Assembly: GCF_002895945.1 (NCBI RefSeq)
Contig: NZ_NPZB01000001.1
Coordinates: 511,501-575,500 of the forward strand
Reading direction: 5' to 3'
Source of the DNA: Solilutibacter silvestris
GTDB lineage: Bacteria; Pseudomonadota; Gammaproteobacteria; Xanthomonadales; Xanthomonadaceae
DNA: 64,000 nucleotides
In this document: piece after piece, positions 51,339 through 64,000 of the stretch
How the letters are laid out: the number at the start of each line of letters is the position of its first letter
Numbering within the stretch: the stretch's first letter is position 1
Translations under genes and position numbers: made by a program
Notes under the pieces: generated by a model
What the model saw: the letters and a program-made list of their open reading frames with translations, nothing else
What the model was told of the DNA's origin: nothing
The model's database searches: none

Positions 51339-52976
51339 CTATCGGTATGTGCATTCGACGAGACGTGATTCAGGATTCGCCCTGTCTTCAGGCATGACTG
51401 TTCTCACATCTGCTAGGCTATTTGAATCGAGTGTAAAGTGCACATTAAACTCTGACTGTCGTTCCCTATCACCATGGAGAACAACGACAAGAGTTTTTTC
51501 AACGGTCTTTTTCAAGATAAGGGTAAAGAGCGTATCTTTACTGCGCTCATCAAGATTCGCTAGTGGCTCATCGAATATGTACAAGTCTGCATCCTGAGCC
51601 AACGCCATCGCAATTTGAAGCTTTCTTTGTTCTCCCGCTGAAAGCAGCGTAGGGTTTGAATTACGTAGTCCGCTGATTCCAACAAGTTCCAGCCAGTTCT
51701 CTGCTCCCCGAACTCCGGCAATCTCCGCAACATTCTCGAAAACCGTTCCCGGGAAAAAAGCGGGGTCAGTGAATTGACAGCTAATTCTTCCCTTTCCCGG
51801 CAAATGCGCTGCTCCAGAAATCGGATCTTTTAGCCCGCAGATTAGATCCACTAATGTAGATTTTCCGGTGCCGTTTGGACCAGAAATTAGCATTCGGTCC
51901 CCCGGAATTAGGCTAAATGAGATGCCACATAGCATTCGCTTTTCATCTAGCTGAGCGGCAGCACGGTCAAGCACAATGGTTGCATTGTCCTGATAGCATT
52001 CACGGTCATTTTTGCAACTCGCAAGCATTTTAAATTCTTCCAAGCGAGCGGCGACCCCGTTCATGGTGGCAAGCTGCGGCGTGAGTTCAATTAAGCTCTG
52101 AGCGCCGCTTACGGCACGCCAGTACGCTCCCATGAAGCTAAATAGGCCGCCGATTGTTAGTCCACCCGATATTACGGCAATGCCGGAGCCCAGAAGTACG
52201 GCCATCTCTGCATAGGACAAAAGAATTCCGCTAATCAAAGCGAAGATAGCAGTATGTTTTGTAAGTGTCAGTCGCGATTGCACGTTTTTCGAAAGAGCAT
52301 CAGACAATGCACTATGAGGAAGTAGTGCCCGGCGCATTGTGTTGTAGAGTTTGAAGCTGCCGACAACTTGCGATAGGGTTGTTCGCAGCTGTCCCTCGGT
52401 CTCTTGAACTTCCGAACTAGAATTCGAGATGCGACCAGAATAGCGTTTAGAAATGATCAGCAACACAGGAACGATCAAGCTAACGGCTAGGGCAAGTTGC
52501 CATGAAAGCCATACGCACACTGCAAGCGCGCTTATGAATCCCACAATCGATTTGTAAATCCCTATGACGGTATCAAGAGCCCCGGCTAATTCTTTAGACT
52601 CGTCGTATATCCGCCCCGTGTAATAACCATCCCCTTTCTCCCGGATGGAATTGTAGGGTTGATCAAAGTACAGCTCAGCATATTGTTTGGTGTAATCAGA
52701 CATTAAAGCGAGCCTGACTTTCACTTTGAAAATTGAATATAGGTAATCCATTACGCGCATTGCAGTGAAAAAAATTACCGCACATACACCAATGATTTCA
52801 AATCTGTGCATATCTCCTTGCTGAAGAGAATCAACCAACCACTTCAATACAAGAGGGTCTCCTGCTGTTGCAATGGTGGTTTGAACGGTCACGAATACAA
52901 GCAGCAACAACAACAGCTTCCATCTTTGCCGAAGCAAGGAAGTCAAAAGGCGACGAACGCGATCGGGGATCCACAT
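51339..52976 (-). CDS. ABC transporter (fused TMD-NBD), lanthipeptide exporter
   Basis: A 545-residue half-transporter: six membrane segments in residues ~15-310 (LLRQRWKLLLLLLVFVTVQT onward) and an ATPase domain with Walker A ISGPNGTGKSTLVDLICGLK, signature LSAGEQRKLQIAMAL, Walker B LYIFDEPLANLDE and switch HGD (VVVLHGDRE, with the usual TH replaced). No N-terminal C39 peptidase is present, as expected for class III lanthipeptide exporters, where the leader is removed by a separate protease. It starts 7 bp after the LanKC stop on the same strand, so it most likely exports the modified peptide. Confidence 0.88.
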   Translation of the reverse strand: MWIPDRVRRLLTSLLRQRWKLLLLLLVFVTVQTTIATAGDPLVLKWLVDSLQQGDMHRFEIIGVCAVIFFTAMRVMDYLYSIFKVKVRLALMSDYTKQYAELYFDQPYNSIREKGDGYYTGRIYDESKELAGALDTVIGIYKSIVGFISALAVCVWLSWQLALAVSLIVPVLLIISKRYSGRISNSSSEVQETEGQLRTTLSQVVGSFKLYNTMRRALLPHSALSDALSKNVQSRLTLTKHTAIFALISGILLSYAEMAVLLGSGIAVISGGLTIGGLFSFMGAYWRAVSGAQSLIELTPQLATMNGVAARLEEFKMLASCKNDRECYQDNATIVLDRAAAQLDEKRMLCGISFSLIPGDRMLISGPNGTGKSTLVDLICGLKDPISGAAHLPGKGRISCQFTDPAFFPGTVFENVAEIAGVRGAENWLELVGISGLRNSNPTLLSAGEQRKLQIAMALAQDADLYIFDEPLANLDERSKDTLFTLILKKTVEKTLVVVLHGDRERQSEFNVHFTLDSNSLADVRTVMPEDRANPESRLVECTYR

Positions 52977-52983
52977 GGCAGCG

Positions 52984-55650
52984 CTACGCCTTACGGCTTT
53001 GGTTGATCATGGGGAGATCGTGCATAAAACGACTGTTGCCATTCTGTAAGCGGTGCATAAACGAGCCAACACCTGAGGCGCCATATGCATAGTCACAGCT
53101 CAGGCGTTGGAGTCCGCGTCCAAGAAATCCAAGACTCCTCTGCCCCTGGACGCGGTATAAAGAAACATTCTTGGCAAGAATCCGTGCCCGCTCTAAGTAA
53201 AGGGCGTCCCCAGTGAGTTGATGCATATCCAACATAAACTCGCCAATACCGCTCATGCCTTCAAATTGCCCGGGGTGGACGGTAAATGCTGAAAAGCAGC
53301 TGTCTGCGGCTTGCCGTGCAAGATCGGTGTATCGGGGATCGTCCAACATACATCCGAATCGAATGAGAGCTGAGCCAACGCCACTTGCACCGTGTAGCCA
53401 GTAAGGTTCCGAGACGCTTGCAGCTGGGGTTGCACCCCACGAAATGTGCTTACCATCACTGATAGCCAAGTCAATCTCCGCATCGATGGCGTTTTTGGCT
53501 GCAAAAATTATTTGTTCATCGTTCAAAAATGTCCCTAAGTAAAGCAGCGACAAAGCGACGCCAGATCCGCCAAATGCATAGCCCAGATGGTGCTTTCCAT
53601 GGGCACTGATTTCCCATGATTTGTTATTCGTTGAATTGCTCTTACTCTCCCGGAAAATTAGCTGTCTTGCTATCTTTGTCGCTACTGAAATTGCCTCTGG
53701 ATTTTGGGAGAAAGCATCACAAAGCAATGTGCTGAGGACAACTCCGGCGTCGCCTTGAAAGAGGTTGCTCTCCTCACCAATTAAAGGAGATGTTAGAGCT
53801 TGCTTGAGCAGCCGTTTTCCTTCGGCAATGTATCCGGCTTGGTGCAGAATTACCGCAATACCGGCGCTGCCGTTATAGAGGCCCGGTGGTAATTCATTAG
53901 AACGTTCAATTGCGTTCAAGTACCAGGTCTCTTGGGTGCTGGTGAGCCCCATGCGGAGTGACAAATATTGCATGGGGCCGCCGCAGCCATAAGCGACGCT
54001 TAGCGGGTTCGTATTGAATGATTCCGGGTCGGATGGCCATAGGCGATCTGTCCGCTCTGGTTGGCATGTAACGCCTAGGAATTTATCGATACCATCAAGG
54101 ACCTCGGCTATTAGGGGAGCAATATCCCTGTTGGCAGTGGGCTCTTTTCGATGTTCAATGGGGCTTTGTGAACTTGTCAGCATGCGTTGGAAGTGGGCGG
54201 ATGCCATCACCGGTTCTGCCTTCCATAAAGCATGAATTGCTAGGCCCATCTCTTCTGGCAACCCTGCAGAACTCGAAAGTTCTTCAAGGAATTGTTCAAC
54301 GTTCGATGCATCAAAATCGAATAACGATTGAATCGGCAGTATGGCACTGAACACGATCATTCCAAGGGCGTACCAGTCATCCTTCTGGCTGACATCCTGG
54401 TGCTCAGCTTTGCTCTTGTCTCTGAACCCAGAGGTTGCCCACATGGACGTAAATGTTTTTGGAATAGTCCCGCCTACAACCGAAGCTCCCTCAAAATCAA
54501 TCAGAGTTATCTCCAAGGTATTTGGATCTATTAGTAAATTCCCTGGGGACAAATCTCCTACAACAACATCATGACGATGTATTTCGTCTAAAATTTCAAT
54601 TGCTTGTAAGGCGATCTTCGAGATTTTCGTGCAGAAATTTTTGGCCTTCTCCTCGTCGCGCTCAAAAGGCAGGAGATTGATGTCACTTCTGGCTCGAAAT
54701 CGTGTAAACGGTACACCTTCGAAGTATTGCTCTACTAGGAATGTATGCTCCCAATCTTGGATGATGTCGTAAACATCAATTACCCCATTGATGGATATAA
54801 GTCGAGAGAGGACATCAAATTCATGGCGCAGCAGCATCGACGCATCTAAGTCCCCAGTATCTAATCTAAACTGTGCAGCATGGGGTCTTGCCTCTTTCAA
54901 AACGACCTTTCGATCGTTGCAGATGGTATCTGTCGCGAGATATATGCCCCCGCCGTTTGAGAAGGTCAGCGCTTTTATGACCTTATAGCGTCCACCAACG
55001 AGACCAGAGCCTTCGCTACTGGATCCATCGTGACTATCAGGGAATGGTTCCGTTACCCACGGCGGAAGTTTGTAATAGGGCAGACGATCTTCTTTATAGG
55101 TTGATCCGTCTGGAGCATATAGTTCGCTCTGGCGTGTCCCCGAAATGGTTAATTTTGTGTGCGAGACGATTTCCCCATACCTGTAGTAGACAACTCCGGT
55201 CTGGGTATAGCGCTTGTCAGAGAGAATGTATGGCCCTTCAAAATTCTGAGTTGCATCATGCAAAAGAGGAGCAATTATGAGGAACTGCTCCTCGTCTTGG
55301 GGATAAATGGTCATCAACTTCCCAGCATTGCCTCGAGGGTAATGCTTCGAGTTCATAACGGACAACATCAGAGGATCTCTCGCTATCTTGAAAGAAATTC
55401 CCTGTTCGAAACAGATACGGGAACCAGCGCGGATAACATCCTCAGCATGAGTTGCCTTTGCTGATAGATGAATTTTGAACCCATGCGGCCGAAGTTTCCT
55501 TTCAGGGGGATGAGCTGCCAGCCAAACGCCGCTTATGCTTGTTGTCCACTCTGCAGGTAGATTTTCTAGAAGGACATCCTGAAATTTAGAGTTGTATTCT
55601 ATATTCGCGATGTCTTCGAAGAAATTTTTGTCGGCTAATGTATGCAGCAT
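52984..55650 (-). CDS. Class III lanthipeptide synthetase LanKC
   Basis: An 888-residue three-domain enzyme. Residues 1-200 are the phosphoSer/Thr lyase domain (TGVVYYRYGEIVS at ~152-164). Residues ~218-500 are a Ser/Thr kinase: RYKVIKALTFSNGGGIYLAT, Lys252 in VVLKEARPH, catalytic loop VVGDLSPGNLLID (Asp366, Asn371) and DFE (Asp385). Residues ~560-888 are a LanC-like cyclase with GYAFGGSGVALSLLYLG, YWLHGASGVGSALIRFG and YAYGASGVGSFM. The cyclase zinc ligands (the Cys-Cys-His of LanC and class IV LanL) are missing, which defines class III. It phosphorylates and dehydrates Ser/Thr of the precursor and forms (labionin/lanthionine) rings. It lies 60 bp after the precursor gene. Confidence 0.93.
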   Translation of the reverse strand: MLHTLADKNFFEDIANIEYNSKFQDVLLENLPAEWTTSISGVWLAAHPPERKLRPHGFKIHLSAKATHAEDVIRAGSRICFEQGISFKIARDPLMLSVMNSKHYPRGNAGKLMTIYPQDEEQFLIIAPLLHDATQNFEGPYILSDKRYTQTGVVYYRYGEIVSHTKLTISGTRQSELYAPDGSTYKEDRLPYYKLPPWVTEPFPDSHDGSSSEGSGLVGGRYKVIKALTFSNGGGIYLATDTICNDRKVVLKEARPHAAQFRLDTGDLDASMLLRHEFDVLSRLISINGVIDVYDIIQDWEHTFLVEQYFEGVPFTRFRARSDINLLPFERDEEKAKNFCTKISKIALQAIEILDEIHRHDVVVGDLSPGNLLIDPNTLEITLIDFEGASVVGGTIPKTFTSMWATSGFRDKSKAEHQDVSQKDDWYALGMIVFSAILPIQSLFDFDASNVEQFLEELSSSAGLPEEMGLAIHALWKAEPVMASAHFQRMLTSSQSPIEHRKEPTANRDIAPLIAEVLDGIDKFLGVTCQPERTDRLWPSDPESFNTNPLSVAYGCGGPMQYLSLRMGLTSTQETWYLNAIERSNELPPGLYNGSAGIAVILHQAGYIAEGKRLLKQALTSPLIGEESNLFQGDAGVVLSTLLCDAFSQNPEAISVATKIARQLIFRESKSNSTNNKSWEISAHGKHHLGYAFGGSGVALSLLYLGTFLNDEQIIFAAKNAIDAEIDLAISDGKHISWGATPAASVSEPYWLHGASGVGSALIRFGCMLDDPRYTDLARQAADSCFSAFTVHPGQFEGMSGIGEFMLDMHQLTGDALYLERARILAKNVSLYRVQGQRSLGFLGRGLQRLSCDYAYGASGVGSFMHRLQNGNSRFMHDLPMINQSRKA

Positions 55651-55670
55651 TCGGCGCCCCTACCAAAGAA

Positions 55671-55701
55671 AGCTGGCGCTGGAGAAATACCAGCGCCAGC
55701 T
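55671..55701 (-). terminator. Hairpin between precursor and LanKC (attenuator-like)
   Basis: Perfect 12-bp stem (AGCTGGCGCTGG / CCAGCGCCAGCT) with a 7-base loop, 8 bp downstream of the precursor stop in the direction of transcription. The following bases on the transcript strand are TTCTTTGG, a weak U-tract. This would give partial termination or 3-prime protection, raising precursor over synthetase. Confidence 0.75.
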
Positions 55702-55709
55702 GGTGTAAA

Positions 55710-55850
55710 TCAGAACCCTTGGAACTTGGTGCTGCCACCGCAGTTGTAGCTCACGCCGCTCGCCGAAGTGCAGCCAGCGCTTAGGCCACTGTTCCCTTCG
55801 CTTGCCGTTTCTTCGAGTTCCAGTGTTTGCAGAGAAAGAATCGCGTTCAT
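55710..55850 (-). CDS. Class III lanthipeptide precursor peptide (LanA), 46 residues
   Basis: Read from ATG 55850 on the minus strand: leader MNAILSLQTLELEETASEGN, then core SGLSAGCTSASGVSYNCGGS and STKFQGF at the end. The leader contains I-L-S-L-Q (residues 4-8), matching the ILxLQ-type motif by which LanKC enzymes recognise precursors. The core has two tandem Ser-x2-Ser-x2-Cys units: Ser21/Ser24/Cys27 and Ser31/Ser34/Cys37, the pattern that class III enzymes convert to labionin (or lanthionine) rings. AAGGAG lies 8 bp upstream of the ATG. Gene order precursor-synthetase-exporter supports the call. Additional Ser/Thr (Thr28, Ser29, Ser40, Thr41) could be dehydrated. Confidence 0.92.
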   Translation of the reverse strand: MNAILSLQTLELEETASEGNSGLSAGCTSASGVSYNCGGSTKFQGF

Positions 55851-56486
55851 TTCAATACTCCTTGTAGTTTTGAAGAAATGTCGCCTGACACAAAGGCGGG
55901 TTTATGCCCGCTTTCCAGTTGTGTCCTGTCCCGCGGGTGAATCGAAACCTAACAACGCGAATTTTCGAAAACAACACAGCTTTCACACTTTTATCGATAA
56001 ATATTTCTATGCCTGTCCGAAGTTGAAGATGATGTTCGAATTTGGACTGATAACGTAGGCGTGGGTGTCTTATTGACATGACGGAATGCAACATCGGACC
56101 GTTCAATCGAATTCGGACGTCCGATTTCGATATATCGCAATCAGTGTTTTTTGAACGAGCGCACGATTTCTTAATGGCGCCAATGAGTTCGCAAGAAGAA
56201 GACCAACAAGTCAGCTGCTTGAATGCTGATTAATCTGCGGAAAAATGCTATTAAGTCAGCGGAGGTGGACGTTTTTCCGGTTGTATCGCTCTTATGCGGC
56301 GGTCAAATTCACTCATGGGGATAAATAGTGAAGCGGTCTGCATGAATTGTTAATGTGCGTAGATCGGGGAAGACCACTTGTTCACAGCCGGTATCTGTAA
56401 GGGGTTGGCCCGTGTTCTGTACAGACTGATTTAATCAGTGCGACGAGTCGCATTTAACTAAAGGCATTTAACAGGAGAGTTGCGTT
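55851..56486. other. Divergent regulatory region between lanthipeptide and QueC-like operons
   Basis: About 636 bp with no supportable gene. On the lanthipeptide side it has a GC-rich imperfect hairpin (AAGGCGGG / CCCGCTTT around 55893-55914), and TGTCCGA (56014-56020), TCGGAC (56094-56099) and the large palindrome 56106-56131. The remaining 350 bp upstream of the small-protein gene are AT-rich; I see no clear promoter consensus. Confidence 0.5.
56106..56131. promoter_or_regulatory. 26-bp near-perfect palindrome upstream of lanthipeptide operon
   Basis: Left arm ATCGAATTCGGAC and right arm GTCCGATTTCGAT differ from perfect symmetry at one pair. The centre TCGGAC-GTCCGA carries the same half-site as the enhancer palindrome at 41690-41705, in everted order. 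It lies about 260 bp upstream of the precursor ATG, a distance suitable for an enhancer-binding protein. Confidence 0.5.
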
Positions 56487-56813
56487 ATGTCTGGATCTGG
56501 AAGTGGTTTCGGGGGTGGGCTGAGCGATGATGTGGCAATTTCTTGCGATCGCCTCATCATTGAAACGACGATTTCCTCTCCGAAGGAATCTGTCATTGCA
56601 AAGTTGTCGGCCAACAATTTTCTACAGGTTGAACTCGAGCAAGTAGGCGCAACTAGTGTCGTTGTCTTGATGTATCAGCGTGAAAAAGCGGGTGGCATCA
56701 CGCATGCGCAGACGAATAGATTACGCGAGTGCATCCAAGGAGGGACAAAATATACGGCCACAGTGATTTCCAAGTCCGACGGCCAGGTCCGAGTTCGAAT
56801 CAAACCCGTCTAA
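56487..56813 (+). CDS. Small Gly-rich N-terminus protein, first gene of the QueC-like operon
   Basis: A 108-residue protein with a flexible start (MSGSGSGFGGGLSDD), followed by a compact beta-rich domain: CDRLIIETTISSPKESVIAK, LEQVGATSVVVLMYQREKAG, and an end YTATVISKSDGQVRVRIKPV. The ribosome binding site is strong (AGGAG). I recall no function for this family. As the first gene of an operon with a kinase/deoxyribosyltransferase fusion and a QueC-like enzyme, it may be a carrier, substrate or scaffold. Initiator Met followed by Ser-Gly would normally expose an N-terminal Ser. Confidence 0.75.
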   Translation: MSGSGSGFGGGLSDDVAISCDRLIIETTISSPKESVIAKLSANNFLQVELEQVGATSVVVLMYQREKAGGITHAQTNRLRECIQGGTKYTATVISKSDGQVRVRIKPV

Positions 56814-56840
56814 CGGCCACAACTCTGCAGGGGGATCAAT

Positions 56841-58052
56841 ATGCTGGCGATCGTTGGCGGCGTATATCGGGAGCAATGTATGCGTCCCAATTGGGACGAG
56901 TTCTATGGTTCAGCGGGGCGTGCGGTAAGTGCGGTCGCTAAATTGGGTGGCCAAGCGGCTTTGCATTGCTACCTGACACCTACTGCAAAAGACGTTATAG
57001 ATGCTCGGAAAACAGCGGAGGGGTTCGTTGTTCGTGACTCCGTAACTATCGAAAACATCAGTTTCTACTATGAACATGGATTGGCTCGCCCAAAGTTTTG
57101 GCGCCCTACGAGTCAACTCTCTCCGTTGCAAGTCAAGGATGACCTTGTTTTACGCTACGGCATGTTGGAGAGCACGGCCGTCGTTAATGCGGATTACGCT
57201 GTGTTCGATCCGCAAAATGTCGACATGCCAGAGTCCTTTCACCACAACGGATCGACAGCCAATCACTTGGCATTGGTATTGAATCGGTACGAGGCGCGTG
57301 CCCTGCTTAGGGCGGCCGAAAGTCTTCCGTTGGATCAAGTTGCTCAGCAGCTAGCCCAGCAAGAAAGGGCCGAAGTCGTAGTCATCAAGTGCGGTCCACA
57401 AGGGGCACTTGTCTGGCACAGCGGCAAGGCAACCCAGGTTCCAGCCTACGAAACAACCAAAGTTTGGAAGATAGGTTCAGGCGACCAATTCGCGGCCAAC
57501 TTTGCTTATGCATGGATGGAAGAGAGGCGTGATCCGGTTGAGGCTGCAGATCGAGCGTCTCGCGCGACCGCGTTCTACTGCCAACACCTCGGTTTTCCCA
57601 CTGCTGCCGAACTCGACAATTACAAACCGGATCCCATCCTTGTTTCGGGCGACTACAAAAACGGAGTTCGGCGTAAGGTGTATCTTGCTGGTCCGTTCTT
57701 CACACTCGGAGAGCTGTGGGTAGTCGATCAGGCACGGCGAAGTTTGCTCGACATGGGATTGGACGTTTTCTCTCCCTATCACGACGTCGGCCCAGGCGAT
57801 GCTGCAGATGTTGTACCCAAGGACATCGAAGGCATTCGTGACTGTGACTTATTGCTGGCCATCATGGACGGTTCCGATGCCGGTACTGTCTTCGAGGTCG
57901 GTTTCGCTTATCGCGATGGGAAGCCGGTGATTGTCTATGCCGAGAACGAGACAGCCGAGAACTGCAAGATGATGGTTGGGTCGGGATGCTTCATGCGGCA
58001 GGACTTTGTCAGTGCGATCTATAAGACCGGATGGGTCGCCGCTTCTCTATGA
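56841..58052 (+). CDS. PfkB-type kinase fused to a nucleoside 2-deoxyribosyltransferase-like domain
   Basis: A 403-residue fusion. Residues 1-~265 are a PfkB/ribokinase-like sugar or nucleoside kinase: LAIVGGVYREQ start, a substrate-binding region, VVVIKCGPQGALVW, and the anion-hole/catalytic motif KIGSGDQFAANFAYAW (Asp215). Residues ~278-403 are an NDT-like Rossmann domain: VYLAGPFFTLGELWVVDQAR, DIEGIRDCDLLLAIMDG, and GTVFEVGFAYRDGKPVI with catalytic Glu352. The first activity would phosphorylate a nucleoside; the second would transfer or cleave a (deoxy)ribosyl-base bond. The stop overlaps the start of the QueC-like gene (ATGA), so they are coupled. Confidence 0.85.
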   Translation: MLAIVGGVYREQCMRPNWDEFYGSAGRAVSAVAKLGGQAALHCYLTPTAKDVIDARKTAEGFVVRDSVTIENISFYYEHGLARPKFWRPTSQLSPLQVKDDLVLRYGMLESTAVVNADYAVFDPQNVDMPESFHHNGSTANHLALVLNRYEARALLRAAESLPLDQVAQQLAQQERAEVVVIKCGPQGALVWHSGKATQVPAYETTKVWKIGSGDQFAANFAYAWMEERRDPVEAADRASRATAFYCQHLGFPTAAELDNYKPDPILVSGDYKNGVRRKVYLAGPFFTLGELWVVDQARRSLLDMGLDVFSPYHDVGPGDAADVVPKDIEGIRDCDLLLAIMDGSDAGTVFEVGFAYRDGKPVIVYAENETAENCKMMVGSGCFMRQDFVSAIYKTGWVAASL

Positions 58053-58654
58053 AGACAGCACTGTTGCTCTCTGGCGGAATGGATTCCATCGCTTTGGCGT
58101 GGTGGAAGCGCCCTAAACAGGCCTTCACAGTCGACTACGGCCAGCTCGCTGCAACTGCCGAGATTGATGCGTCAGTTGCGATTTGCCGTGTCTTGGATAT
58201 CCCACATACGGTAATTCACTTCGACGCCAAAGCATTGGGCTCGGGTGATATGGCGGGCACTCTGCCGGACCCGAATGCGCCGGCCAGCGATTGGTGGCCG
58301 TATCGTAACCAGCTGTTGGTGACGCTGGTTGCGATGAAGGCTGTGGCGAGTGGCACTCAGCGGCTCTGGATGGGCGCAGTTGCGTCGGATGGCGTTCACA
58401 AGGACGGTACGCCAGAGTTCTTTATGCACATCAGCCGCCTGCTTTCTTATCAGGAAGGGGGTATTGTTGTTGAAGCGCCAGCGATCGGTTTGAGGACAGT
58501 GGATCTGGTTCGTAAATCCAATATTCCGCGATCGATGCTCGCTTGGGCCCACAGTTGCCACAAGGCTGATGTTCCCTGTTGCGACTGTCGTGGATGCAAC
58601 AAGTATTTTGAGGTTCTGCAGGAGCTGGATCGCGATGTGGCCACTGGGGACTGA
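58049..58654 (+). CDS. QueC-like ATP-dependent 7-deazaguanine-type enzyme
   Basis: A 201-residue PP-loop ATPase related to QueC (preQ0 synthase). It has the PP-loop LLLSGGMDSIALAWW (8-13), the YRNQLL motif corresponding to the GRN of QueC, a shortened central part (ASDGVHKDGTPEFFMHIS) and the C-terminal zinc site SCHKADVPCCDCRGCNKYFE (Cys170, Cys177, Cys180, Cys183). Canonical QueC converts 7-carboxy-7-deazaguanine to the amide and nitrile with ammonia and ATP. No queD, queE or folE lie here, so this is not a queuosine operon; QueC homologues also occur in the Qat and type IV CBASS anti-phage systems. It overlaps both neighbours, so it is a core member of this operon. Confidence 0.88.
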   Translation: MKTALLLSGGMDSIALAWWKRPKQAFTVDYGQLAATAEIDASVAICRVLDIPHTVIHFDAKALGSGDMAGTLPDPNAPASDWWPYRNQLLVTLVAMKAVASGTQRLWMGAVASDGVHKDGTPEFFMHISRLLSYQEGGIVVEAPAIGLRTVDLVRKSNIPRSMLAWAHSCHKADVPCCDCRGCNKYFEVLQELDRDVATGD

Positions 58655-59306
58655 CCCTGTACCTCGCGGCGCGCCCAACCCTTACGCCCCCATTGAATGG
58701 GAGATAACGGAGCGTCGCTCTTTAGCGATCTCTGATGGAGGTGCGTTGGCGCCGATGGCGACAGCTTTAGACGCAAGGCGTAGCGAACGAACGTTTGCGC
58801 CTATTCCTGAAGCGCTATTGGGTGCTTTGTTGTGGCATGTCGCACGGACGAAGGAATCGGCGCCATCCCCGTTTGGATTTCAGATCGAATATCGACCGTC
58901 GCCCTCAGCGGGTGCAATTCATCCCATCCATCTAGTTATCCAACTTGCAGATGAAGATAGTTGGGCACGTTACAACCCCCAAGAACACAGTCTGGACCTT
59001 TTAGCGAATGGCAATAGGCTTTTGCAGCCGTTACTCGATTACAGCGGACAGGTAATGCCGCAGGGCGGTGGCCGCTTGATCCTGTTTGTAGCTGAGCCTG
59101 GAAAAACTGCTGCCAAATATCAGAACCCGGAAAGCTTGGTTTGGCGTGATGCGGGAGTTTTGCAGAGCAGCATTGCGTTGGTCGCTGCAGCTTTGGGATT
59201 GAACTACTGCCTGCTTGGTATTACCGGCAACCCATGGGTTGCCCAACTATCCAATCAGGGCAAGTTGCAGGGAGTCGGTGTCGCGATCCTTGGGAAGAAA
59301 CCTTGA
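58635..59306 (+). CDS. SagB-type flavin-dependent nitroreductase-family oxidoreductase
   Basis: A 223-residue nitroreductase-fold protein. It shows the SagB-like segments: ALDARRSERTFAPIPEALLG, then FQIEYRPSPSAGAIHPIHLV (FMN-binding Ser/Ala/Gly stretch) and WRDAGVLQSSIALVAAALGL followed by NYCLLGITG. SagB enzymes oxidise azolines in peptide maturation, while other members reduce or oxidise small molecules. Here the partner is a QueC-like enzyme, not a cyclodehydratase, so the substrate may be a nucleobase (inference). ATG 58635 lies within the end of the QueC-like gene behind GGAG. Confidence 0.82.
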   Translation: MWPLGTDPVPRGAPNPYAPIEWEITERRSLAISDGGALAPMATALDARRSERTFAPIPEALLGALLWHVARTKESAPSPFGFQIEYRPSPSAGAIHPIHLVIQLADEDSWARYNPQEHSLDLLANGNRLLQPLLDYSGQVMPQGGGRLILFVAEPGKTAAKYQNPESLVWRDAGVLQSSIALVAAALGLNYCLLGITGNPWVAQLSNQGKLQGVGVAILGKKP

Positions 59307-60092
59307 AATCGCATGCTTTTGCTTGAATTTTCCGTCGGGTAGCGATTCCATCACAGTGGCGACGGTGCGTGGTGATGCCATCATTTCCCACCAGATTACT
59401 GCGTCGAGCTCCGACGCCCGCACTCCTAAAGCTTTGCTGAAAGCGAGGAATTGCTGTTCCAACTTAAGGTAATGACGTTCGACTGTCAGTTCAGCGTCTA
59501 GGAATTTCGCAAGAGCACCAGCACGCAAGATATGGATATCGAGAATTGCCACGTCATCGGCATTGAGCCAGTTGCGGGCGATCCATGAGGCCGTCTTGAA
59601 CCCGATCCCTGGAATGCCGAGTAGCCAATCGCGTAACTCGCGTCCGGAATTCTCTGGTGAGGGTTCAGTTGCGAGCGCCTCTAGTGCTCCAGCAAGGTAT
59701 CGTGCCTTTTGTGCAGCGAAACGGTAATGGACGCGCTTGCCATCGATCTCTATTGGCTCTGACAACCAGTCACGCAAAGTTGCTTCATCTGGATCGGAAC
59801 TATCAAATGCACCCTTGGCTTTCAGATGTTCGAAAGCCAGAAGCCCAATGCGAGCTGGGATACCATGGCCACCTAGCAGGCAGGCACCAACTTCTTCACG
59901 CAGGGTCCGACCTAACCGATAGTTGATCGAGCGGTCCTCAATGCGTCGTGCGATGACTTGGTATGCCCAATATGCTGGGGAAGGAAAAGCTTCGACCTGC
60001 CCCCATTGAACACCCGGCATGACCTCCGTCTCGGGCGTCGGCAAATCGACACAGACTGCCATTGATTCCAGCATCACGTAGGCGCGCTGCAT
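59247..60092 (-). CDS. OGG-like HhH-GPD DNA glycosylase
   Basis: A 281-residue helix-hairpin-helix glycosylase: DWLLGIPGIGFKTASWIARN contains the HhH with catalytic Lys166, and VAILDIHILRAG the catalytic Asp185 (GPD equivalent). The N-terminal region (VQWGQVEAFPSPAYWAYQVI) lacks the long OGG1 beta domain. It could excise a modified or oxidised base. OGG-type proteins accompany QueC-like proteins in type IV CBASS. It is convergent with the nitroreductase gene and overlaps it by 60 bp. I start it at ATG 60092 because GGAG lies 8 bp upstream; the frame extends to a TTG at 60128. Confidence 0.85.
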   Translation of the reverse strand: MQRAYVMLESMAVCVDLPTPETEVMPGVQWGQVEAFPSPAYWAYQVIARRIEDRSINYRLGRTLREEVGACLLGGHGIPARIGLLAFEHLKAKGAFDSSDPDEATLRDWLSEPIEIDGKRVHYRFAAQKARYLAGALEALATEPSPENSGRELRDWLLGIPGIGFKTASWIARNWLNADDVAILDIHILRAGALAKFLDAELTVERHYLKLEQQFLAFSKALGVRASELDAVIWWEMMASPRTVATVMESLPDGKFKQKHAISRFLPKDRDTDSLQLALIG

Positions 60093-60262
60093 GTGCTTCT
60101 CCAATCCGAAATCAGAACCAAGGGACAAGCCGATGGGTCAAGGACAGCTGCGCAACAAACACTTTAGAGCTGGCACTTAATCACTTGGAACGCTAATCGA
60201 AAGTGACAGTGATCAAGAGCTGGTGGGGTGCGTGTTTGCGCGGGGCTTTCTTACAGGGGAAG

Positions 60263-60287
60263 TATGCCATAAAATATGCGTATATGC
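60263..60287. promoter_or_regulatory. TATGC repeat cluster at XRE gene start
   Basis: TATGC occurs three times in 25 bp (60263, 60275, 60283), and CATA-AAA-TATG (60268-60278) is an inverted repeat. It overlaps the putative start of the XRE regulator gene, a common position for an autoregulatory operator. Functional assignment is inferred. Confidence 0.35.
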
Positions 60288-60646
60288 CAATAAGGACAGC
60301 CACAACTCATCCTTTAATGATCCAGCTCCCGGCTGCGTTGCGGGCACGTATGAATGCAAGTGGACATACGCAAAATGACGTAGAAAAGGAAACTGGAGTG
60401 CCCCAGTCACAGATCAGTCGTGCTCTCAATGGTCAGCGAAAACGGCCGACGAACGAGATGCTTAAATTATGCCGATATGCTGATTTATGTATTGAGAATG
60501 AGAGCGTCCCAGTGCTGGAAGAGCTTTCCAAGCTGCTAGAGCAAATCGCCTCAGGGGGGCCGGTGGCAACGGCATGTGCGCGGGGAATTCTCGGGAGTTT
60601 GGCGCTGTTGCTGAGGGATTCGACGGAGCGCAAAGGTAAGGCATAG
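60284..60646 (+). CDS. XRE-family HTH regulator
   Basis: About 120 residues with a Cro/CI-type HTH: LRARMNASGHTQNDVEKETG followed by VPQSQISRALNGQRKRPTNE, then a short helical tail (LEELSKLLEQIASGGPVATA). Starts at ATG 60284 or 60317 (MIQLPAALRARM); the frame back to 60203 precedes a TATGC repeat cluster that is probably the operator. Upstream of an ImmA/IrrE peptidase gene, the usual pairing in which the peptidase cleaves or inactivates an XRE repressor on damage or infection. Confidence 0.82.
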   Translation: MPIRTATTHPLMIQLPAALRARMNASGHTQNDVEKETGVPQSQISRALNGQRKRPTNEMLKLCRYADLCIENESVPVLEELSKLLEQIASGGPVATACARGILGSLALLLRDSTERKGKA

Positions 60647-61086
60647 CGCTAAGGCATTACCCTTCTAGGTGTCTTCGGAAAGTTGTGCGCCCAACATTAA
60701 GTGGACGTAAAGACAACGATGCGGCAGGACCCGGCGTCGAAGCCTCTAGAGGGCGCGGGGGGTGGCGCCGAGAGATGTCGGCCAACGCAAGCGTTGTGCG
60801 ACCCAAGACCTAAAGCAATGCCAGCCGCCGGCAGGGAGCGGCACACCAAGGCTGGATTGGATCTCCCTGTATCAAGGGCTAGCTTTAGCGGCGCAGGGGG
60901 TTGTCGGGTAAAGCCATAATGACCGCTCGGCCCCAAGGACTTGCCGGCGCGCAGGTCGGGCGCAACTATTGAGACGGGACTACCATAGCGTGGAGCCTGC
61001 CGACCTAACCCTTCCGTAAACAGCCATTTTGGTACACTACCGGCCGTGGAAAATCGCGCCAATATGCCGGTCTACTGGGGTCCACA
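60647..61086. other. Local GC-rich stretch without supportable gene
   Basis: 440 bp between the XRE and ImmA/IrrE genes. From about 60.70 to 61.00 kb it is clearly more GC-rich than the surrounding island and contains a hairpin CAACGC-AA-GCGTTG (60783-60796) and other short GC-rich inverted pieces. A minus-strand frame stays open through it (60697-61062) but has no ribosome binding site or recognisable domain. A structured non-coding RNA or an inserted fragment is possible. Confidence 0.4.
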
Positions 61087-61638
61087 ATGAACATTCAATC
61101 CATTGATAGAAGCAAGTGGAGCGAGCCCACCGCATTGGGGTTTTCCCGCGGTGAGGTTTCAGCGTTCGCGAGCAATATCGCAACGAAGCTTGGCTACGCG
61201 CCTGGCGAAGCGTTGGAGCCACTGGTCGAACGCCTAGGGGGCGTGATTGAGTACGGCGATGACATGGATCAATCCGAGTCGGGTTCCATTCGTATTTTTC
61301 CTGGCGGCTTCAAGATATACATTTCGATGGACACCAGTCCGTTGCGGGACCGCTTCACCACCGCCCATGAGTTGGGTCATTACGTACTGCACTATCTTTA
61401 CGCTAACCAGCACCGCAACGCGAATATCCAGTATCTGCGTGCCCAGCGTTATGGGTCTGGCCCAGCGGAAAATGAAGCCAACTGGTTTGCTGCGGCATTT
61501 CTGATGCCGGGCGATAAATTCCGCGCCAAGTTCGATGAATTCAAGGACAGCAGTAATCGCGATTTGCGTTTGGCTGATTTCTTCAAAGTGTCCCAACAAG
61601 CGGCATCCATTCGGGCCAAATCCTTGAGCTTGGAATAA
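61087..61638 (+). CDS. ImmA/IrrE-family metallopeptidase
   Basis: A 183-residue zinc peptidase with the HExxH motif in FTTAHELGHYVLHYLYANQH and the third-ligand region ENEANWFAAAFLMPGDKF, both diagnostic of ImmA/IrrE. ImmA cleaves phage or ICE repressors; IrrE controls DNA-damage responses. Here it is translationally coupled to the cyclase-like gene (stop TAA overlaps ATG at 61638), and an XRE regulator lies upstream. It probably acts as the trigger or control element of this module. Confidence 0.92.
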   Translation: MNIQSIDRSKWSEPTALGFSRGEVSAFASNIATKLGYAPGEALEPLVERLGGVIEYGDDMDQSESGSIRIFPGGFKIYISMDTSPLRDRFTTAHELGHYVLHYLYANQHRNANIQYLRAQRYGSGPAENEANWFAAAFLMPGDKFRAKFDEFKDSSNRDLRLADFFKVSQQAASIRAKSLSLE

Positions 61639-62780
61639 TGGATAGCGGTGTCGTAGATGCGGCGGCGATAACTCTCGCCCCTAGGCCAACGTTGCGCCGG
61701 AAGTTGTTGCTGTTCCTGAGCGCTGACATCGTCGGGTCGACTGCCTACAAGCAGAGGAGCAAAAGCAGCAGCGACTGGTTCGATACTGTGGGCCGATTTT
61801 ACAGATACGCAGAAACCACATTTCTGCGGTTTTGGAAGGTTGCCCAGGCCCATAATCCTGAAACGAAGGATGAGTTGTTCGGAACTTCGGAGCCGGTCTT
61901 GTGGAAGACCATAGGTGATGAAGTGCTTTTCACCAAGGAAATCGATACCCCATCCCAAGCCGCCGCATGCATGCAGGTATGGCTGAACGCACTCAAGGAG
62001 TATCGTGAATTTCTCGCGAAGGCTGATCCAGCTCTGGACATCAAATCGACGGCATGGCTGGCTGATTTCCCTATCAGCAACCGGGAAATTATCCTGCGAG
62101 TAGGCAACGACGAGGACGACGAGAACTTTGCGTGGGCGAATGATCGGCTCCTTCAGGAATATGAGAAGGGCACGACTGGTTTGACGCGCGATTTTGTTGG
62201 CCCTGCCATCGATACCGGGTTTCGCTTGGGAGCAGCGTCCTCCACTCGACAGCTGATGCTATCGGTTGAACTTGCCCATTTGCTCAGTGGGGAAGAATGC
62301 GGCGCAAGCGAAAAGTACTCTGCTGGTCCGTACCAGATGCCATGGAGCAAGTTGAGGTACTCGGGACGTCAGACGCTCAAGGGCGTTATGAATGGCCTTC
62401 CCTATCCCCAACTCTGGATCGACGCCAATCCGACCAAGGCGATCAATAAGGCCGAAGACGTGCTCATCGCGCGTCCTGAGCCACGATGCGAGCAGATCCA
62501 TGCGTTCACCACTGCATTCATTGAAGAGCATCCGACTAAGTTTTGCACGGGCTTGAGTTTTGCCCACGGCCCCGCTCCGGCCGCGTACATGGAATATTGC
62601 AAAGCCATCAACGAGCAGATTCTCGCGGACGAGAAGAATTACCTCGAACATGAGCAAGCTCAGAAAGAGCGGTTGGACGCGGCGGTCATTCCGGAATCGT
62701 CTCCAGCCAAAATGATTGAGGATATCGATATCCCTGGGCCTGCCGCGAACACTTCGCCCACATTGCCGGTCGCCGAGTGA
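61638..62780 (+). CDS. Class III nucleotide cyclase-domain protein
   Basis: A 380-residue protein whose N-terminal ~230 residues form a class III cyclase homology domain: LLLFLSADIVGSTAYKQRSK with metal ligand Asp30, VLWKTIGDEVLFTKE with Asp94 and Lys90, and DFVGPAIDTGFRLG, which aligns with the DxWGxxVNxAxRL motif of adenylate cyclases (Asp185 at the base-specificity position, Arg196 retained, but the transition-state Asn replaced by Asp192). The last ~150 residues are a hydrophilic domain of unknown type. No membrane segment. It could make cAMP or another cyclic nucleotide; Pycsar defence cyclases belong to the same superfamily. Coupled to the ImmA/IrrE gene. Confidence 0.8.
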   Translation: MDSGVVDAAAITLAPRPTLRRKLLLFLSADIVGSTAYKQRSKSSSDWFDTVGRFYRYAETTFLRFWKVAQAHNPETKDELFGTSEPVLWKTIGDEVLFTKEIDTPSQAAACMQVWLNALKEYREFLAKADPALDIKSTAWLADFPISNREIILRVGNDEDDENFAWANDRLLQEYEKGTTGLTRDFVGPAIDTGFRLGAASSTRQLMLSVELAHLLSGEECGASEKYSAGPYQMPWSKLRYSGRQTLKGVMNGLPYPQLWIDANPTKAINKAEDVLIARPEPRCEQIHAFTTAFIEEHPTKFCTGLSFAHGPAPAAYMEYCKAINEQILADEKNYLEHEQAQKERLDAAVIPESSPAKMIEDIDIPGPAANTSPTLPVAE

Positions 62781-62837
62781 TAGCTAAACCAATAACGAAT
62801 CCCGAGGCAAAAGTCTGAAGTTGGATCGGACTGGGCC

Positions 62838-63608
62838 TTAGCGAACCGTCGCGTAAACCAGGCCGACAAAGCCGACTGCGACAACGACATGGGCAATGAA
62901 GATGGCGCGACGATGCATCTTTTCGCCTTGCTTGATTCGATTCCATTCCGGTTTAATGACCAGATTTCCTAGTAATGTGGCGCGCATGATCTTCTCGTCG
63001 ATCTTCTCGTAAGCACCTTCGGTGCCCATCTTGTCGTAGTCACCGAGCATACCGGTCAGTAGCTGATCGAGTTCGCTCACCAGCTCAATGGCGGCAGGAG
63101 TCGCTTGTTCCAAGCTATCTAGCTTCTGACTCTTTTTCTTTGCTTCCAGCAACAGTCGTTCTGCCAACGTTCTTGGATTGTCGCTCAGGCGCCTCCAGAT
63201 GTCCTCTGGGCTACGACCTCTAGTTTGCGGGGGGTTTGTACGCTCGCAAAACAGCTGGACGCTCGTTTCGGCAAAATTCAAGTGCAATAGTACGTCCCTA
63301 TAGGAACGGCGGTAGTTGTTCCAATGCGCGATGAGCTCGCCCTCGAGCTTCTCACGGTCAAAGGGAGAGAGCTTCACGGAAGCCTCCGGGATGCCCTGTG
63401 CTGCCGCAATATGTTTGATGCGAATTTTGATACGACCGGCAATGACATGGGCCTCCCCCAAACATTCGGCCAGCGCAGCTCTGAAGGTAGTGATCCAGTC
63501 CTTTCTGAAATCGGAAATCTTGCCTTCCTTGTCGGAGACAAGCTTGGAGGTAGCCAATATCGCCGTCACGACGGCAGCCGTGACGGCCAACATATCCTTT
63601 GCTTCCAT
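62838..63608 (-). CDS. Membrane protein with N- and C-terminal helices, possible effector
   Basis: A 256-residue protein with one membrane segment at the N-terminus (MLAVTAAVVTAILATSKLVS), a long charged alpha-helical central region, and one at the extreme C-terminus (FIAHVVVAVGFVGLVYATVR). I start it at ATG 63608 because AGGAG lies 6 bp upstream. It is convergent with the cyclase-like gene, 57 bp apart. The TM-helical-TM form would suit a membrane-disrupting effector or a receptor-less anchor. No family recognised. Confidence 0.7.
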   Translation of the reverse strand: MEAKDMLAVTAAVVTAILATSKLVSDKEGKISDFRKDWITTFRAALAECLGEAHVIAGRIKIRIKHIAAAQGIPEASVKLSPFDREKLEGELIAHWNNYRRSYRDVLLHLNFAETSVQLFCERTNPPQTRGRSPEDIWRRLSDNPRTLAERLLLEAKKKSQKLDSLEQATPAAIELVSELDQLLTGMLGDYDKMGTEGAYEKIDEKIMRATLLGNLVIKPEWNRIKQGEKMHRRAIFIAHVVVAVGFVGLVYATVR

Positions 63609-64000
63609 AATGCTCCTTCCCAAAGTGATCGTTCAAGCGTGGCCGGCCGCGCAAGAAGTGCCCCGACTCTTGATTTTGCTCGCTGCACGACAACCCTTCA
63701 TATTTACCAAACTTTTAACAACTCGTCGACTATGCGTCCGTGCACATCAAGTCTTCAGAATGGGGGGAGGGCCGATCGCGGATATGGTGTGCGCGCCGGG
63801 ATGCCTGGGTCAGTTGACCGAGCTGTGATGATCAAGTTGTCGACGGCACGATCAGGTTGCTTCCGGCCCGAAGCGGACTTCGTCATTAAGAAAAGTCGTA
63901 CGGCTAATTTTTTTAGCGCCTAATCTTTCATGGGCGAGACTGATGTACGACTCATGATGAGGTATAGCATTCGATAGTGCCGGATATAAATAGTTGATTA
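63609..64000. other. Window end, no gene seen
   Basis: About 390 bp upstream of the membrane protein gene without a supportable coding sequence. It presumably holds that gene's promoter. The last 100 bp are AT-rich. Confidence 0.5.

Follow-up and report, generated by a model that had tools for sequence, protein, structure and literature searches.

A 64,000-nucleotide stretch of the Solilutibacter silvestris genome (contig NZ_NPZB01000001.1, positions 511,501 to 575,500), referred to here as the window, contains a compact cassette in which a relative of the nucleobase-forming enzyme QueC is encoded beside other enzymes of bases and nucleosides. All five of its genes are intact and open at the positions given below, as established by a reading-frame check of the window. 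The cassette most likely represents a third family of QueC-type nucleobase-protein conjugation systems, and it is on balance probable that it forms a mobile anti-phage module built on conjugation of a nucleobase to the N-terminus of a HIRAN-like acceptor protein. Its genes, with the regulator that adjoins them, are as follows.

56487-56813, + strand: gene 1, a Gly-rich small protein of 108 amino acids, with the tail MSGSGSGFGGG... followed by a HIRAN-like domain; proposed N-terminal nucleobase acceptor
56841-58052, + strand: PfkB-type kinase fused to a nucleoside 2-deoxyribosyltransferase (PfkB-NDT), 403 amino acids; Pfam PF00294 and PF05014 over their cut-offs (PfkB 6.7e-13, Nuc_deoxyrib_tr 1.6e-16); PDB 6evs and 1gqt
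58049-58654, + strand: QueC-like ATP-dependent enzyme, 201 amino acids; PF06508 5.8e-18; "Cluster 4" of PMC13329287
58635-59306, + strand: relative of the SagB-type flavin dehydrogenases, 223 amino acids; TIGR03605 2.6e-16 (below cut-off), Nitroreductase Pfam 1.2e-7
59247-60092, - strand: OGG-like HhH DNA glycosylase/lyase, 281 amino acids, convergent; PF22175 2.1e-14; PDB 9o00 and 3fhf
60203-60646, + strand: helix-turn-helix (HTH) regulator; HTH_3 4.3e-8; GTG start as listed, later start possible

The PfkB-NDT and QueC-like genes overlap by 4 nucleotides (ATGA), the QueC-like and SagB-like genes overlap by 20, and the 3′ end of the OGG-like gene overlaps the SagB-like gene convergently by 60. 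An initial annotation, made from the sequence alone, had described four tightly overlapping genes, which is accurate for the second and third genes and for the third and fourth, but not for the first two, as these are separated by 27 nucleotides. The GC content is 54.2% in the cassette, 59.7% in the window as a whole and 62.0% over the first 50 kb of the window. The HTH gene, absent from the gene list of the initial annotation, is probably part of the window version of the cassette; its homologues often adjoin the OGG gene. PADLOC and Pfam scans of 10 window proteins (genes within 52984-63623) detected no CD-NTase, TGT or Qat partner, as the initial annotation had also noted, and no homologue of the Dam-type methylase of other copies was found in the window.

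Recurrence and genomic setting

A scan of bacterial and archaeal genomes with a PfkB-NDT alignment returned 436 relatives among 532 pattern matches, of which the best 80 were kept. Together with nine plasmid or Escherichia coli loci, two loci duplicating L021 and L055, and the window itself, these constitute 92 sources, some of them near-identical (e.g. L011, L026 and L029; L015 and L086). By iterated profiles, gene 1 and PfkB-NDT are present in all 92, the QueC-like enzyme in 91, the OGG-like protein in 89 and the SagB-like protein in 85, with accessory genes for a Dam-type methylase, an HTH protein and a dGTPase in 54, 27 and 15 sources, respectively. The recurrence of this gene set in many organisms is far beyond chance, and the homologues, as the initial annotation had proposed to check, do co-occur elsewhere. 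In most gamma- and betaproteobacterial copies the OGG gene lies downstream and convergent, often touching the Dam gene; in most alphaproteobacterial copies it lies upstream in the same orientation, usually accompanied by a divergent HTH gene. The HTH homologues mostly adjoin the OGG gene, and a few are distant.

Carriers among the kept matches include Pseudomonas, Acinetobacter, Lysobacter, Massilia and Brevundimonas, along with a Melainabacteria metagenome-assembled genome, Coraliomargarita, Sphaerochaeta, Pedobacter and Geobacter, and distant versions occur on haloarchaeal plasmids. The distribution is nonetheless patchy. A full-length PfkB-NDT was found in 2 of 99 other relatives (G037 and G070), with partial kinase matches only in five more, and, across 398 genomes of the phylum, in 7, a count that includes the genome of the window. 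One E. coli type reaches at least 80% query coverage in 10 of 5426 genomes, and a looser DNA search with the window cassette matched 18 E. coli genomes over 25-33% of the query.

Variation on the common arrangement is also seen. The 15 sources with a dGTPase gene in the cassette stretch are L014, L016-L019, L023, L024, L040, L041, L058, L059, L064, L072, L087 and L088; in Moraxella (L016) this gene overlaps the QueC-like gene in the place of SagB. An Mrr-type restriction endonuclease gene follows the QueC-like gene at the usual SagB site in L108 (6772-7488). A second cassette copy lies within a few kb of the first in L060 and L069, that of L060 being partly broken, while L098, L099 and L144, divergent copies without SagB, contain two pairs of gene 1 and PfkB in tandem.

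The cassette is borne on plasmids in Pseudomonas, Citrobacter, Synechocystis, Moraxella and others, and a full-length PfkB-NDT or a relative of it occurs in 5 of the 80 viral contigs kept. On two of these contigs (L142 and L143) profiles detect gene 1, PfkB-NDT and the QueC-like gene and no other cassette gene, and a Buttiauxella locus (L077) likewise holds only the proposed acceptor, PfkB-NDT and the QueC-like gene, with neither OGG nor Dam. A gene matching a phage repressor lies directly downstream of the L143 copy, followed by genes for a CII-like activator and an origin-nicking protein; a nicking protein also flanks the L142 copy, and repressor and CII-like genes flank that of L077. From this gene set, the phages are presumably P2-like. 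The working core of the cassette is best indicated by the three-gene phage set.

The setting of the cassette was compared with that of canonical queC in the same genomes, taking 20 of the 92 sources, at most seven flanking proteins from each and an E-value limit of 1e-10, with the dGTPase and HTH genes retained. The 137 proteins flanking the cassette matched 255 PADLOC families and the 140 flanking canonical queC matched 3; as these are counts of families, several of which can be matched by one protein, 255 against 3 overstates the ratio and does not give a fold enrichment. Matches in the cassette flanks include dGTPase (5 proteins), MADS2 (4 proteins), type I methyltransferase and specificity subunits, AriA, CapP and others, whereas those of canonical queC are confined to mad3 and two ZorB models. 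Phage integrases (5), TniQ (3), TnsD (2) and TniB (2) are also found in the cassette flanks. The view of the initial annotation, that a conserved cassette of base and nucleoside enzymes lies in a defence-like setting, is borne out. A function in phage defence is very probable, as inferred from the PADLOC-rich neighbourhood, the patchy distribution, carriage on plasmids and the three-gene phage copies.

Enzymes of the cassette

The 46 QueC-like sequences aligned share the motifs SGG.DS, YGQ(x)5E, P(Y/F)RNQ, HxDG and CH(x)5CxxCxGCxK. Searched against the PDB, their profile matches QueC (2pg3, 6.9e-14) and Cap9 of type IV cyclic oligonucleotide-based anti-phage signalling systems (CBASS; 9nto, 7.7e-14) about equally. 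The window enzyme scores 57.7 bits against the canonical QueC model TIGR00364, below the cut-off of 150.3, and the canonical motifs YxQxHxxE, VPxRN and YPDC are replaced by YGQ(x)5E, P(Y/F)RN and HxDG, with the RN pair and the Asp retained. The enzyme keeps the Asp that reads the Watson-Crick edge of the base, together with the ATP loop and the Cys motif. The spacing of GQ(x)5E, one residue longer than the canonical, is common to the QueC-like enzyme and two Cap9 sequences; a GSG[DE] motif, also considered as shared with Cap9 alone, was dropped, as canonical QueCs have a similar GGSAL stretch. The SGGxDS, YGQ...E and CH(x)5CxxCxGCxK motifs and the PfkB-NDT neighbour are those of Cluster 4 of PF06508, with five residues between YGQ and E in the cassette family and six as written in PMC13329287.

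A housekeeping role as preQ0 synthase is rejected for this enzyme, given the TIGR00364 score far below cut-off and the separate canonical QueC encoded with an adjoining QueE (G000:C1, about 1096680-1097962) in the window genome, where QueD is also present. The initial annotation, which had treated the QueC-like protein as something other than a housekeeping enzyme, is supported on this point.

The NDT domain scores 60.9 bits against PF05014 (gathering score 28.8), and PfkB-NDT conserves D215 in 89/89 sequences, D346 in 87/89 and E352 in 89/89, the latter two of which are taken to be the NDT catalytic Asp and Glu. The OGG-like protein scores 53.9 bits against PF22175 (gathering score 27), and the Lys and Asp at the HhH places, presumably the catalytic residues of that fold, are each present in 80/80 sequences (K178 and D197 from the TTG start, K166 and D185 from the ATG). 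Because the PfkB Asp, the NDT Asp and Glu, and the OGG Lys and Asp are essentially invariant, PfkB-NDT and OGG are likely all active.

The SagB-like protein is a relative of the SagB family and not a member by score (59.6 bits against TIGR03605, cut-off 78.4), and its best PDB matches are CyaGox and a SagB-type dehydrogenase (5lq4 and 8pz5, 1.2e-5). Its Tyr184 is found in 76/76 sequences and a preceding Lys in 63/85 by a script pattern, with a few more by eye; these may correspond to the catalytic Lys-Tyr pair of SagB.

The OGG and Dam genes invite another explanation, namely restriction by base excision, in which the OGG-like enzyme would cut phage DNA at a particular or modified base, Dam would protect the host, and the other proteins would make or read the mark. 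OGG (89/92) and Dam (54/92) are both frequent, are encoded on the same strand and often overlap, and DPPY is found in 54/55 Dam hits in addition to the OGG residues above. Yet no Dam homologue was found in the window, the phage copies L142 and L143 and the L077 copy are without OGG and Dam, and no base-inserting gene was recognised in the window cassette by Pfam, leaving this explanation distinctly improbable.

Gene 1 and the proposed conjugation

Gene 1 has no match in Pfam (E up to 0.05) or NCBIfam. Structure prediction yields a disordered tail and a HIRAN-like domain composed mainly of strands, and on this model the protein has the HIRAN fold, which is known to bind DNA. Of 95 homologues, 88 have a start codon that reads into M[ST]G, with Ser in 85 and Thr in 3, the starts having been chosen by this motif. 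M1 and G3 are invariant at the end of a tail that is otherwise variable in both its length and its sequence. The acceptors known or proposed for QueC-family protein ligases start with MGGS in type IV CBASS and with MGTS in Qat, and a G2D change is described as blocking modification in CBASS and defence in both systems. The initial annotation had left a signal, a protein conjugate and a DNA or RNA mark as options; because the near-invariant M[ST]G start resembles the MGGS and MGTS of CBASS CD-NTases and QatB, a protein conjugate is favoured here and the others are ranked lower. It is likely that the gene 1 tail serves as the substrate of the QueC-like ligase. Neither this role for gene 1 nor its HIRAN-like fold was recognised in the initial annotation, of which the conserved cassette and the non-housekeeping QueC stand.

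A free nucleotide signal would be the alternative product, made by the QueC-like enzyme and PfkB-NDT and sensed by the HIRAN protein, with the Gly-rich start being a linker. Signalling nucleotides are common in defence, and SagB, OGG and other proteins could act as effectors of such a system. Linkers drift, however, whereas in gene 1 the first residues hardly change and the variation lies in the remainder of the tail, and unrelated proteins beside other QueC-like enzymes, including TIR proteins and a CBASS cyclase, start Gly-rich too. A free signal is accordingly regarded as improbable.

These unrelated proteins are exemplified by four Rhizobiaceae loci (L104, L105, L136 and L137), where PfkB, OGG, the QueC-like enzyme and a TIR protein are encoded in one cluster. 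The TIR protein starts with MGGGSS in L104 and L105 and with MGGGGGG in L136 and L137, and no SagB was detected in these loci by profile search. In L105, the one of these scanned with Pfam, the Gly-start TIR protein is of the ThsB type; NDT is not matched in the PfkB protein, and TGT is matched by a second TIR gene at 22.7 bits, below the cut-off of 26.3. These loci point tentatively to a connection of the PfkB cassette with type IV CBASS and its QueC/TGT set, in which NDT and TGT might be interchangeable. A viral contig (L146) resembles the rhizobial loci and has MGGSS at an internal start. Haloarchaeal acceptors start with MGGGGSS, MCGGGS or MGGGSGG, followed by two HIRAN-like repeats discerned by eye and also hit by profiles; the phage copy L145 can start with MGGSGGG, and a gene annotated as a CBASS cyclase on a Pseudanabaena plasmid starts with the same MGGSGGG.

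In the loci counted, the second residue of gene 1 differs between those with and those without SagB. In SagB-bearing loci it is Ser or Thr in 86/87, a count with three starts corrected by eye (L051, L080 and L082, where MSG lies further in than the upstream start of the script) and with one exception (L047, start lost); in L080 and L082 the upstream ATG, if it were the real start, would read MGGES. In 18 SagB-less loci it is Ser in 9, Gly in 3 and Cys in 1, with another residue or no motif in 5 (105 loci in all), and these include L060 and L069, scored as SagB-less though a SagB gene lies with another nearby cassette copy. Gly or Cys at this position is seen only in loci without SagB. Fisher's test for SagB and Ser/Thr2 gives 6.7e-5 (90 loci), but the link is not accepted as proven, as relatedness confounds it and an independent-pairs test, with 3 pairs, has no power. 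From this pattern comes the idea that the SagB-like enzyme makes an azole, which is doubtful. An outright azole pathway of the ribosomal-peptide type, in which gene 1 would be the precursor and SagB would oxidise the azoline, would draw on the similarity of SagB to azoline oxidases and the Ser/Gly-rich start; it is highly improbable, as a YcaO-type cyclodehydratase is absent among the 10 window proteins scanned (Pfam), a folded domain is predicted in gene 1, and SagB-less versions persist.

For the favoured conjugation to protein, the sequences establish the set of genes, their motifs, the predicted fold, the mobility and the neighbourhood of defence genes, from which each chemical step, the identity of the base and a role in defence are inferred. 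The gene 1 protein would consist of its HIRAN-like domain and a flexible tail, with Ser-Gly-Ser-Gly as the mature start after loss of Met. The QueC-like enzyme would adenylate a purine-like base at its carboxylate, and this base, most likely 7-carboxy-7-deazaguanine or a relative, would be joined to the N-terminal amine of the tail, as by Cap9 in type IV CBASS. PfkB-NDT, in the position of the TGT-type enzyme of CBASS, would handle the sugar of the base, either freeing the base from a (deoxy)nucleoside for the ligase or adding deoxyribose and phosphate to the tagged base. The SagB-like and OGG-like proteins would be frequent but dispensable finishing or effector parts, SagB perhaps oxidising a ring formed on Ser/Thr2, and the tagged HIRAN protein would act at phage DNA ends. 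In a longer and quite unlikely version of this chain, the first QueC half-reaction would join a carboxylated deazapurine to the N-terminal Ser/Thr and the second would activate the new amide, upon which the Ser/Thr hydroxyl would close an oxazoline and the SagB-like flavoenzyme would oxidise it to an oxazole. NDT and PfkB would then add deoxyribose and phosphate, producing a DNA-binding protein whose tail bears a nucleotide look-alike that could be presented or joined at phage DNA 3′ ends. To our knowledge, no nucleobase-azole protein modification of this kind has been described.

There is an even chance that the conjugated base is a 7-deazaguanine. Canonical-level QueC (E < 1e-50, a line set for this analysis) is found in 41 of 49 carrier genomes and a QueD-family match in 41, not the same 41; QueE was sought in 15 of the 49, with one model made for gammaproteobacteria. 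QueD was dropped as the sole marker of base synthesis, as PF01242 missed it in G526, G531, G534 and G535 despite their canonical QueC, and for this reason joint absence of the genes was used instead. A VUT-family gene, tied to queuosine salvage in the L015 annotation, follows SagB in L015, in L086 (the same plasmid) and in L084.

Several observations weigh against conjugation of a deazaguanine to gene 1 for the purpose of defence. The PADLOC control shows where the genes are located, not what they do. The HIRAN identity depends on a predicted model, for which the best Foldseek match has an E-value of 3.2e-3 and none falls below 0.001, and sequence searches, including that against solved structures in the PDB, gave no match. 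The M[ST]G start is missing in 7 of the 95 homologues, one of these with its start lost; neither gene 1 copy of L098 or L099 has it. The comparison for this motif is itself weak (the commonest pair occurs in 21/96 for PfkB), as comparison genes were taken with uncorrected first starts. The acceptor residue would be Ser or Thr, in contrast to Gly in CBASS and Qat. In the QueC-like enzyme the stacking Tyr of QueC and Cap9 is His, and the Cys of YPDC is Gly. A long branch of the QueC tree separates Cluster 4 from canonical QueC, Cap9 and the TIR-type proteins. Cluster 4 does not nest with Cap9 there, and a sister relationship of the two is not supported; eight long end branches were flagged in this tree, with a warning that long branches tend to be drawn together, and the placement of TIR_L146, a row taken from wrong coordinates, is meaningless. 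Lastly, L067, L083 and L098 have no canonical-level QueC, QueD or QueE match and may not make 7-carboxy-7-deazaguanine by the known route, and L068 has no canonical-level QueC or QueD and only a weak QueE-like match. In such genomes the base would be either salvaged or not 7-carboxy-7-deazaguanine, an argument that draft assemblies weaken.

Purine salvage, as proposed for Cluster 4 by Libby et al. (2026; PMC13329287), would have PfkB-NDT and the QueC-like enzyme recycle a nucleobase, with the other genes incidental. Kinase and NDT are salvage-type folds, the VUT-family gene follows SagB in three sources, and some hosts seem to be without de novo synthesis of the base. Salvage is difficult to reconcile with the patchy distribution, the defence-island and phage locations, and the canonical-level QueC already encoded in most carrier genomes, and it leaves the fixed acceptor-like N-terminus of a HIRAN-like protein in the same operon unexplained. 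It is therefore improbable, to about the same degree as a free nucleotide signal, and conjugation to gene 1 remains the preferred reading.

Other genes of the window lie close to the cassette. A lanthipeptide-type locus on the - strand (51339-55850) adjoins it, with an ABC-transporter-like gene recognised by eye (51339-52976), a LanKC-like synthetase (52984-55650; RamC_N, kinase and LANC_like by Pfam) and a 46-amino acid candidate precursor containing Ser and Cys (55710-55850). On the other side (61087-62780), an M78 metallopeptidase resembling CapP (PADLOC) is directly followed by a 380-amino acid protein with LFLSADIVGSTAYKQ, which is taken to resemble a nucleotide-cyclase motif; the protein has no Pfam, PADLOC, NCBIfam or PDB sequence match. 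Together these two may form a signalling defence system of their own. A 261-amino acid protein encoded convergently to the cyclase-like gene (62838-63623, - strand) matches nothing in Pfam or PADLOC, and its C-terminus looks by eye like a membrane segment.

Relation to known systems

Until an enzyme of the QueC family was shown, in type IV CBASS, to attach a nucleic-acid base to a protein, the family was known for producing such a base. If the proposal made here is correct, nucleobase attachment would be an immune mechanism of general use in which the acceptor (CD-NTase, QatB, HIRAN or TIR) can be exchanged, spanning bacteria, haloarchaeal plasmids and phage contigs, and a QueC cluster labelled as purine salvage would gain a function along with a substrate that can be tested. 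The proposal would also offer a possible reason for the association of QueC-like ligases with OGG and with enzymes that handle sugars (TGT, NDT-PfkB), and the three-gene phage copies are small enough to reconstitute.

The closest published description is that of Cluster 4 (Libby et al. 2026; PMC13329287), which reports the same QueC-like family with CH(x)5CxxCxGCxK, PfkB-NDT neighbours in about 89% and frequent HTH neighbours. It differs in that SagB, nitroreductase, OGG and glycosylase were not found in that main text, a small acceptor is not mentioned in the sections consulted, and purine salvage is assigned. Beyond this paper, no prior record in print was found for QueC with SagB or PfkB, with HIRAN (among the titles listed), or with SMODS, OGG and a nucleotidyltransferase, a weak absence given that most subscription papers and bioRxiv were not covered; TIR-acceptor loci were outside the search. 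The initial annotation had called the cassette undescribed, which applies to the wider gene set in the literature found and not to the pair of QueC-like enzyme and PfkB-NDT.

The rhizobial TIR loci and L146 resemble the cassette in clustering PfkB, OGG and a QueC-like enzyme with a protein whose start is Gly-rich, and differ in their proposed TIR acceptor, the weak TGT match and the PfkB without NDT match (both in L105), and the lack of SagB. In Qat, too, the partner encoded next to a QueC-family enzyme has a flexible N-terminus that bears a motif (MGTS). Unlike Qat, the cassette has no QatA or QatD match, and its QueC-like enzyme is about 200 amino acids in length, without the extensions of QatC, and keeps the Asp where QatC has Thr for the base-reading Tyr/Asp; QatB is helical, whereas gene 1 is predicted to be mainly strands.

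Type IV CBASS comprises a CD-NTase, the QueC-like Cap9 and the TGT-like Cap10, with an OGG partner. The cassette shares with it a QueC-like enzyme with the GQ(x)5E spacing, a proposed acceptor with a Gly-rich N-terminus, OGG and a defence context, but has a HIRAN-like acceptor in place of the CD-NTase, MSG or MTG in place of MGGS, PfkB-NDT in place of TGT, and SagB in addition.

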